Shown piece by piece: positions 62,568 through 64,000 of a stretch of 64,000 nt of DNA. Source of the stretch: Propionicicella superfundia DSM 22317 (GTDB taxonomy: Bacteria > Actinomycetota > Actinomycetes > Propionibacteriales > Propionibacteriaceae); contig NZ_KE384021.1 of NCBI RefSeq assembly GCF_000423465.1, positions 373,115 to 437,114 on the forward strand. The letters run 5' to 3'. Within the stretch, counting starts at the first letter, position 1; the number at the start of each line of letters is the position of its first letter. The translations under genes were made by a program, and so were the position numbers. The notes beneath the pieces are model-generated. The model was not told the origin of the DNA. It worked only from the letters and a program-made list of their open reading frames with translations, and did not search any database.

Positions 62568-63209
62568 ATGAAATTCGAGGCACGGGACATTCCGACGCTG
62601 GTCGAGGGGGATGTCGAGCTGCGGCCGGTGCGCTATCGCGACCACGCTGCCTGGGCCGAGGTGCGGCACCGCAACCGCGACTGGTGCGGCCCCTGGGATC
62701 CGACGCCGCCGCCCGGCTCCAGCGACCAGCCTCGCGACTTCCTGACGATGGTGCGCGGGTTCCGCCAGCTTGCGCGGCTGGGGGAGACCGTCCCGTGGTT
62801 CGTGTGGTACCGAGACGGCGCCGCCGATCCCGTGCTGGCCGGCCAGTTGACGGTGTCCGGCATCGCCTACGGCTCGGCCCGGTGGGCCAACCTGGGCTAC
62901 TGGGTGGACGAGAGGTGGGCGGGTCGCGGCATCATCCCCCAGGCGGTCGCGATGGCCACCGACTACTGCTTCGACTGGTTGCGGCTGCATCGGCTGGAGA
63001 TCGCCATCCGCCCCGAGAACGCCAAGAGCCTGCGCGTCGTCGAGAAACTCGGCTACCGCTACGAAGGACGCCGGGAGAAGTACCTTCACATCGATGGCGA
63101 CTGGCGCGATCACGACGTGTTCGTCCTCAACGCCGGGGATTTCCCCGACGGGCTCGTCGCCGAGTACCGGCAGCGGCGTTGCGCGGCCCGCACGCTGCCA
63201 CCGGAGTGA
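62568..63209 (+). CDS. GNAT N-acetyltransferase (RimJ/RimL-like)
   Basis: A 213-residue acetyltransferase of the RimJ/RimL type, which acetylates protein N-termini. 'VELRPVRYRDHAAWAEVRHRNRDW' is the N-terminal motif, 'ANLGYWVDERWAGRGIIPQAVAMATDYCF' binds acetyl-CoA, and 'RPENAKSLRVVEKLGYRYEGRREKYLHIDG' is the C-terminal motif. It starts 7 nt after moeA, probably in the same transcript. Confidence 0.92.
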   Translation: MKFEARDIPTLVEGDVELRPVRYRDHAAWAEVRHRNRDWCGPWDPTPPPGSSDQPRDFLTMVRGFRQLARLGETVPWFVWYRDGAADPVLAGQLTVSGIAYGSARWANLGYWVDERWAGRGIIPQAVAMATDYCFDWLRLHRLEIAIRPENAKSLRVVEKLGYRYEGRREKYLHIDGDWRDHDVFVLNAGDFPDGLVAEYRQRRCAARTLPPE

Positions 63210-63277
63210 GGTCGTCGGCGGGCGCGTCCCGGCTCGCATCGTGGATGGACACGGTGGCGCAGACCGGGCGGCTCCAC

Positions 63278-63283
63278 TACCCT
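63278..63283 (+). promoter_or_regulatory. Putative -10 hexamer TACCCT for leader peptide 3
   Basis: TACCCT lies 6 nt before the ATG at 63290, the same leaderless geometry as the other two cysteine-rich mini-ORFs. No -35 is obvious. Confidence 0.5.
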
Positions 63284-63289
63284 TGCCGC

Positions 63290-63316
63290 ATGTCCAGCTG
63301 TCTGATGTGCCGCTAG
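63290..63316 (+). CDS. Cysteine/methionine-rich leader peptide 3 (8 aa) upstream of metY
   Basis: The peptide is MSSCLMCR, then TAG. Four of eight residues contain sulfur (two Met, two Cys; one UGU and one UGC). The ATG is 6 nt after a -10 hexamer. The stop is 172 nt before an O-acetylhomoserine sulfhydrylase gene whose ribosome-binding site can be sequestered by a nearby helix (63442-63482). By analogy with leaders 1 and 2 it should sense cysteine or methionine supply (inference). The very short length makes the call rest mainly on position, composition and the repeated layout. Confidence 0.6.
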   Translation: MSSCLMCR

Positions 63317-63441
63317 CGCACGTCCGGCTGTCTTCAACAGATCGCATCGTCTCAGACGCGAACCTGTAGCACCCGGCCCGAAGGCCCGCACGTGCGCCAC
63401 CACCGAACCCCCCGCGGGGCGATCGTGGGCTGCACGTACCC

Positions 63442-63482
63442 CTCGTTCTCGCGGGAAGCCATCCGCCAACCCGAGGAACGAG
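63442..63482 (+). promoter_or_regulatory. Ribosome-binding-site-sequestering helix before metY
   Basis: CTCGTTCTCG (63442-63451) is complementary to CGAGGAACGAG (63472-63482) over ten pairs with one bulged G. The right arm contains the metY Shine-Dalgarno GAGGAA, and the loop is 20 nt. This is the structure expected of a translational attenuator. No alternative partner that would free the site was identified with confidence. Confidence 0.5.
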
Positions 63483-63488
63483 CAAGCA

Positions 63489-64000
63489 ATGACCAACGAG
63501 AATTGGAACTTCGAGACCCGCCAGATCCACGCCGGCCAGGTGCCGGACCCCTCGACAGGCGCACGCGCGCTGCCGATCTTCCAGACGACGTCCTACGTGT
63601 TCGACTCCGCCGAGCAGGCCGCTGCGCGGTTCGCGCTGAAGGAACTCGGCCCGATCTACACACGGATCGGGAACCCGACTCAGGAGGCGGTGGAGAACCG
63701 TCTCGCCTCGCTCGAAGGAGGCGTCGGCGCACTCCTGGTCGCGTCGGGACAGGCGGCGGGGTCCCTGGCGATCCTCAGCATCGCCGAGGCCGGGGACCAC
63801 ATCGTCTCCAGTGCGTCGCTGTACGGCGGCACCTACAACCTGTTCCACTACACGCTGCCGAAGCTGGGCATTCAGACGACCTTCGTGAACGACCCGCACG
63901 ACCCGCAGCAGTGGCGCGACGCCATCCGGCCCAACACCAAGCTGCTCTTCGGCGAGACGGTGCCGAACCCGAAGACCGACGTGCTCGACCTCGAGACGGT
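63489..64000 (+). CDS. metY: O-acetylhomoserine sulfhydrylase (3' end beyond window)
   Basis: The first 170 or so residues of a MetY-type PLP enzyme are visible: 'NFETRQIHAGQVPDPSTGARALPIFQTTSYVFDS', 'YTRIGNPTQEAVENRLASLEGGVGALL' and 'SLYGGTYNLFHYTLPKLGI'. The PLP lysine lies outside the window. The expected reaction is O-acetylhomoserine plus sulfide to homocysteine in methionine synthesis. GAGGAA is 10 nt before the ATG. A related gene lies at 18112. This copy is closer to the standard MetY sequence and has the cysteine/methionine-rich leader upstream. Confidence 0.93.
   Translation, partial: MTNENWNFETRQIHAGQVPDPSTGARALPIFQTTSYVFDSAEQAAARFALKELGPIYTRIGNPTQEAVENRLASLEGGVGALLVASGQAAGSLAILSIAEAGDHIVSSASLYGGTYNLFHYTLPKLGIQTTFVNDPHDPQQWRDAIRPNTKLLFGETVPNPKTDVLDLET

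Follow-up and report, generated by a model that had tools for sequence, protein, structure and literature searches.

The closest described counterparts of the leader analysed here are the mycobacterial polycysteine attenuators, short leaderless upstream ORFs with Cys codons near the stop that precede sulfur genes and through which cysteine is sensed (Canestrari et al. 2020; sections consulted of PMC9094748 and PMC13236596). The metL leader upstream of metNIQ in Streptomyces lividans is leaderless as well, has 29 residues ending in CMCRRMCAF, and is interpreted as methionine/threonine rich in the sections consulted of that report (PMC8079986). Cys leader peptides have also been predicted for Mycobacterium and Propionibacterium, where they precede cys operons, and for Bifidobacterium, where the gene that follows is cbs; no terminator accompanies them, and Rho was suggested (Seliverstov 2005, PMC1262725, sections consulted). 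A different device, the SAM-IV riboswitch (RF00634), also controls metY, both in sister lineages and at one locus (L310) of f1, the window's own family. In the open literature we found no description of a leader with an R-M-C core (RMC leader) before metY; subscription journals lay mostly outside that scope, hence this is no proof of novelty.

The window is a 64,000-nt stretch of the genome of Propionicicella superfundia DSM 22317, and metY occupies its end (63489-64000, + strand), extending past it. The full-length gene from the same genome (L001) scores above the curated cut-off as a bifunctional O-acetylhomoserine/O-acetylserine sulfhydrylase (NF005872, 741.6 vs 703 bits). Beyond the window, metX overlaps the end of metY; as metX is a partial gene in L001, it scores under the full-length cut-offs. 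Upstream of metY, the ORF at 63290-63316 (+ strand) reads ATG TCC AGC TGT CTG ATG TGC CGC TAG, that is MSSCLMCR with its TAG stop at 63314-63316. Met and Cys make up four of the eight residues; a consecutive Cys run is absent from MSSCLMCR, its two Cys codons (63299-63301 and 63308-63310) standing apart. The ATG (63290-63292) follows a TACCCT hexamer (63278-63283, + strand) after a 6-nt spacer. A consensus scan passed no sigma-70-like -35/-10 site at this leader start, and it is the spacing of TACCCT as a -10 hexamer that suggests a transcription start at or near the leader ATG. The original prediction of an eight-codon leader upstream of metY, half Cys and Met and 6 nt after TACCCT, is borne out by the sequence itself and by the conservation described below. 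Its description as one of the shortest plausible sulfur leader peptides also stands: the ORF is leaderless by position, and relatives are shorter still (7 codons). A SAM riboswitch at this place was rejected, since an Rfam search, SAM-IV included, gave no match in the window leader. An imperfect direct repeat, GTCCAGCTGTCT / GTCCGGCTGTCT, covers the leader and the stretch after it (63290-63342), and may have arisen as a side effect of the pairing arms discussed below.

Like the mycobacterial polycysteine attenuators, the window leader is short, leaderless by position (TACCCT plus 6 nt) and placed before sulfur genes, with Cys codons near the stop. Unlike them, as described in the sections consulted, it has no Cys run and belongs to a family with an R-M-C core and an invariant CGA codon; the leaders have 7-8 codons, precede a metY-metX methionine operon, and are accompanied by conserved alternative pairing segments. 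With metL the family shares the R-M-C core, the leaderless placement and a methionine gene set downstream, but metL precedes uptake genes whereas the RMC leader precedes synthesis genes, and the sections consulted of PMC8079986 leave CGA and the shared core unremarked. The RMC leader resembles the leaders of PMC1262725 in having no terminator and in the proposal of Rho; those leaders, however, carry Cys codon runs before cys or cbs genes, and the text consulted does not mention metY (0 occurrences). The likeness to a classical trp/his-type attenuator lies in the conserved frame, start placement and Cys enrichment of a putative translated leader. Taken at roughly 60% probability, our reading is that 63278-63489 is a cysteine-responsive leader-peptide attenuator of metY-metX that works through ribosome stalling.

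A MetY scan of genome contigs yielded 80 named loci. At the nearest of these the same place is held by ORFs ending in R-M-C-R-stop, namely MSRRMCR (L037), MTRRMCR (L038, Actinotalea lenta), MFTRRMCR (L041) and MFCRMCR (L042); none of the four has a SAM-IV or other Rfam match, and a SAM-IV aptamer stays below the gathering score in L001. At L039 (Miniimonas arenae), which lies outside the set described next, an RMC leader is absent within 420 nt. Two loci were left out: the contig of L040 begins 160 nt upstream, and L166 offers only 54 nt upstream. A close metY is present in 184 of 200 genomes of the family to which the L038 genome belongs. The upstream DNA of 109 of these 184 (29 from the metY search loci, 80 fetched additionally), together with that of the window, L037, L041 and L042, gave 113 regions. 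A script found a sister leader in 110 of them; one more, longer leader (MIRRMCCPTDHC, L253) was recognised by eye, and the metY upstream regions of L239 and L250 have none. The script-found leaders have 6-10 codons with MC and one or two further residues at the end, most commonly in the form M-x2-3-R-M-C-[R/S/C]-stop. TANNNT precedes the ATG in 109 of the 110, at 6 nt (57) or 7 nt (52), again a leaderless placement. An additional 35 rows were found by a CGA-demanding pattern, and one of them (L278) is the same locus as L042; CGA counts are therefore given below for the 110 only. The ATG precedes CGA by 9 or 12 nt in all 145 rows, in each case by whole codons. The frame is kept across leaders that differ in first residue, length and last residue, and the C-terminal variants CGC, AGC, TGC, TGT-TGC and AGT-TGC all preserve it to the stop.

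We define an RMC leader by R(CGA)-M-C one or two codons before the stop, an ATG 9-12 nt upstream, and GCGCAC past the stop. The window retains M-C-R-stop, the ATG at 12 nt and GCGCAC, with CTG in place of CGA; a covariance model, R1, scores it at 37.4 bits (E 2.0e-8), the window being among the 40 rows on which R1 was trained. The pattern CGAATGTGYNGCTGAN{0,8}GCAC, which joins the core to the 3' arm, was searched in 396 genomes of the order to which the L038 genome belongs; it matched 61 times, in 60 of them, and its reversed control never. Fifty-eight of the 61 lie upstream of metY: 30/30 loci at 129-210 nt (where the protein match starts inside the gene, these distances carry an error of at most 12 nt), 21/21 further fetched, L357-L360, and those of G456, G489 and G485. 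The other three are L356, directly before metX in a genome without a close metY, L361 at a contig end, and L355, which is no leader. A looser leader pattern (stop as TRR, which admits TGG) was rejected, its matches being at the level of the reversed control and the six contexts examined being non-leaders; near-matches outside metY likewise read as non-leader contexts. Judged by sequence comparison, the leader is real and strongly conserved in many actinobacteria.

Four RNA segments of the window (all + strand) can enter alternative pairings. Segment 2, GCGCACGTCCGGC (63316-63328), is the partner of segment 1, CTG ATG TGC CGC (63302-63313; in relatives CGA ATG TGY). Over 63316-63323, segment 2 can pair instead with its perfect complement, segment 3, ACGTGCGC (63390-63397), which itself pairs with segment 4, GTGGGCTGCACGT (63425-63437), as the hairpin 63390-63437 in the MFE fold of the window. 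The leader codons thus pair with GCGCACGUUCG directly past the stop, while GCGCACGU alternatively pairs with a conserved downstream CGUGCGC. Structure statistics were computed on 83 of the 110 sequences (near-identical rows removed) plus the 35, that is 118 including the L042/L278 duplicate, and on fewer where a segment is missing. Hairpin 1:2 is strong relative to shuffles, with a median z of -3.12 and z < -2 in 100/118 (window z -1.66). Double-sided covariation was seen in 0/5 of its pairs in 40 aligned rows, because the 5' arm is invariant; by eye, the window helix has one double-sided change (A-U to G-C) adjoining a mismatch. The downstream block CGTGCGC matches ACGTGCGC at 7/8 positions or more in 76/110, vs 16.2 expected from shuffles. 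When segments 2 and 3 are paired with their own partners, 926/1064 cells are standard pairs, against 900.5 +/- 3.8 and at most 915 in 1000 swaps, and compensatory pair types occur, such as CCGCACAT/AGGTGCGG and GCGCACAT/ATGTGCGC. We take this excess as support and not proof, because related sequences can beat swaps without structure. The 2:3 duplex energies were -14.30 kcal/mol for own pairs, only slightly weaker for swapped ones (-13.75), -12.4 with a reversed segment and -11.16 when shuffled; 40 of 80 sequences had a duplex at 5 or fewer of 100 shuffles. Set against the exclusive helices of a classical trp/his-type attenuator, 1:2 and 2:3 are supported, and 3:4 folds in 63/99, segment 3 pairing more than 20 nt downstream in the MFE, at a strength no greater than that of shuffles (median z -0.33; window -1.16). 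The comparison thus points to a translated leader with a fixed frame and Cys enrichment, followed by segments 2 and 3, which are conserved across the family with partial covariation; the mutual exclusion of 1:2, 2:3 and 3:4 is a modelled feature.

In the mechanism that we propose, transcription would begin close to or exactly at the leader ATG, and a ribosome would load on the leaderless ORF. With Cys-tRNA plentiful, the ribosome would reach the stop codon and cover segment 2, so that 3:4 would form and expression would stay low. With Cys-tRNA short, it would stall at a Cys codon within segment 1, and segment 2 would emerge just ahead; the freed segment 2 would then pair with segment 3 (GCGCACGU/ACGUGCGC), dismantling 3:4 and allowing metY-metX to be expressed. 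The ribosome in our model occupies the RNA from 15 nt upstream to 11 nt downstream of the A-site codon's first base. In 99 sequences, a stall at the core Cys codon gave a mean P(2:3) of 0.384, vs 0.040 without a ribosome and 0.006 with one at the stop codon. P(2:3) exceeded 0.5 in 46/99 with the core-Cys stall, in 3/99 when free and in 0/99 with the stop-codon ribosome, so the core-Cys stall leaves it at 0.5 or less in 53/99. The same stall lowered the pairing of segment 3 with downstream sequence in 38/99 and raised it in 2/99. Segment 2 starts 10-14 nt beyond the Cys codon in 103/115, where the front edge of a waiting ribosome is expected. In the window, placing the first Cys codon in the A site gives a P(2:3) of 0.97, whereas placing the core Cys codon (63308) there gives 0.00; only the first yields 2:3 here because segment 2 starts 8 nt past the core Cys. 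No terminator-like site and no U-tract were found in 63150-63600, and nothing there corresponds to the intrinsic terminator of a classical trp/his-type attenuator. In the rest of the leader C exceeds G in 145/145 rows (0.448 vs 0.300; window 0.424 vs 0.280), a comparison made among RMC leaders alone. As the leader RNA is C-rich and has no U-tract, the output is perhaps Rho-dependent.

It was originally predicted that a helix covers the metY ribosome-binding site, and translational attenuation, in which the stalled ribosome frees the Shine-Dalgarno from that helix, is the first alternative to consider. The helix 63442-63451 / 63472-63482 (63442-63482, + strand), covering the Shine-Dalgarno GAGGA, is indeed in the MFE fold of the window, its duplex energy being reached by 3/100 dinucleotide shuffles and stronger than in the other 97/100. 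Some relatives have strong GCUCC/GGAGC helices, and in 14/110 no more than 5 of 100 shuffles reach the strength of the helix, vs ~5.5 such sequences expected. Over the 110, however, the median z is -0.14, that is shuffle strength, so that the helix is present in the window but is not a feature of the family. Nor does the modelled core-Cys stall open it: in ensemble folds Shine-Dalgarno accessibility goes up by more than 0.1 in 12/99 and down in 13/99, and stalling at the first Cys codon of the window leader lowers it from 0.24 to 0.01. On the shuffle z-scores and the stall model we rejected the ribosome-binding-site helix as the family switch, and we regard translational attenuation as improbable. 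Since Shine-Dalgarno accessibility does not follow the stall, the point at which output is decided probably lies 5' of the metY ribosome-binding site, and attenuation would act more probably on transcription. The switch supported by comparison likewise lies upstream of this helix, in the leader codons, 63316-63323 and 63390-63397, through which metY-metX expression would change; the original prediction does not mention it.

A second alternative concerns the residue that is sensed. The operon is metY-metX, which makes homocysteine, and the core Met codon varies no more than the Cys codon, an invariance that the script filter imposes; the leader might accordingly sense methionine through the Met codon before Cys. 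Two leaders without the core Cys keep R-M, MTRRMRS before metX (L377) and VTCRMRR before metY (L398). Against this, the 110 leaders offer 462 free positions, at which further Cys outnumbers further Met by 55 to 2; extra Cys occurs in 49/110, and Cys is duplicated as RMCC, RMCCC, TCRMC and CCRMC. Moreover, a methionine-starved cell would presumably also fail to initiate the leader. Methionine sensing is therefore unlikely, and the counts at free positions suggest cysteine as the residue sensed. The original prediction that the leader targets methionine rather than cysteine synthesis holds as far as the operon is concerned; it does not hold for the enzyme, which is scored as a bifunctional homocysteine/cysteine synthase, nor for the residue enriched in the leader. 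In the two exceptional leaders CGA-AUG is kept and Arg replaces the core Cys; an earlier Cys is present in L398 and there is none in L377. At L356 and L377 the RMC/RMR leader is followed immediately by metX, without an intervening metY. The core Cys codon is TGT in 87 and TGC in 23 of the 110 leaders, and the stop is TGA in 108, TAA in 1 and TAG in 1.

We also followed the family beyond metY. By inference from the genomes, f1 corresponds to Propionibacteriaceae, f39 to Microbacteriaceae and f22 to Streptomyces. In f1, a MetY match at E 1e-140 was found in 31/177 genomes. The six closest other f1 loci (L305-L310) have no RMC leader, L310 carrying SAM-IV, and the window metY is 82% identical to that of L037 vs 73% to the closest other f1 locus; these two observations suggest that metY and leader arrived in the window's genome together by horizontal transfer. 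Named Arthrobacter, Nesterenkonia, Kocuria, Galactobacter and others have SAM-IV ahead of metY, and several Arthrobacter-type loci (L043-L056, L065, L080) have two SAM-IV, before metY and ~120 nt past the metY match. An R1 search of 394 genomes of the class gave 87 at E 0.01. Among the matches listed (30 loci), 13 were judged real, namely 10 MCCRMC leaders, L377, L398 and the window, and 17 were judged chance. The 10 MCCRMC leaders, ATG TGY TGY CGA ATG TGY, belong to f39. A pattern allowing any CGN/AGN at the Arg codon matched 67/199 f39 genomes, with CGA in 67/67 and 0 in the control. The same winged-helix (Trans_reg_C) gene lies 98-500 nt downstream in 29/30 loci, L410 being cut off; this undescribed protein may be a sulfur regulator. 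Most f39 loci (L407-L436; for example L387, gene at 667-1374 on the - strand) have a GCCGGCATGATGATGCCGGC-like inverted repeat just 5' of the leader. In 81 putative Streptomyces genomes, a pattern with eight Arg codons matched 15, all CGA, and the reversed control 1, and a metN-like gene follows 209-273 nt downstream in 15/15. For the two metN-like genes scanned, the best model was MetN, below its cut-off, with a NIL domain above cut-off. All 15 metN-type leaders (L362-L376) end in C-R(CGA)-M-C-A-F-stop, and a conserved downstream CCCCGCGCAC block at these loci can pair with GTGCG of the core.

The 110 leaders upstream of metY were found without requiring any Arg codon, and Met-Cys is preceded by CGA in 109 of them and by CTG in the window. 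CGA is rare in the metY genes, at 3/553 Arg codons in 30 of the same loci. It is retained where the 3' arm is missing (L237, L249 and L267 have no GCAC) and likewise kept in f39 and metN-type leaders, the window copy being without it; pairing alone does not account for the invariant CGA codon. CGA is read by an inosine-adenine wobble, which is slow, and its conservation is perhaps a codon-level constraint of that kind. That CGAATGTG is instead a DNA or RNA binding site of a regulator, its reading frame incidental, would suit the nucleotide invariance of CGA (109/110 at metY, 67/67 in f39, 15/15 in metN-type leaders) but is the least probable alternative, as CGAATGTG shares the reading frame of an ATG that precedes it by 9 or 12 nt (145/145 rows), is closed by a stop one or two codons later, stands at differing distances from the start across three gene contexts, and is accompanied by free positions that fill with Cys. 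To return to the stalling attenuator, we tentatively extend it, at lower confidence than the reading of the metY leader, to a superfamily of actinobacterial sulfur RMC leaders. In it, CGA-AUG-UGY might be a codon-level regulatory word, CGA before Met-Cys being a built-in slow step that times the ribosome against RNA polymerase before Cys-tRNA is tested. No fewer than three gene contexts, unrelated to one another, would share this word: one with metY-metX or metX by itself, one with a metN-like gene and one with a winged-helix regulator gene.

Altogether, a leader with just seven or eight codons may serve a methionine operon as its conserved control element across an actinobacterial order. Sister lineages use SAM-IV for metY, and peptide leader and riboswitch would thus substitute for each other. 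The rare CGA before Met-Cys in three contexts raises the question of whether decoding speed, besides the amino acid, is part of attenuation, and the MCCRMC leaders draw attention to a winged-helix protein, so far unstudied, that may be a sulfur regulator.
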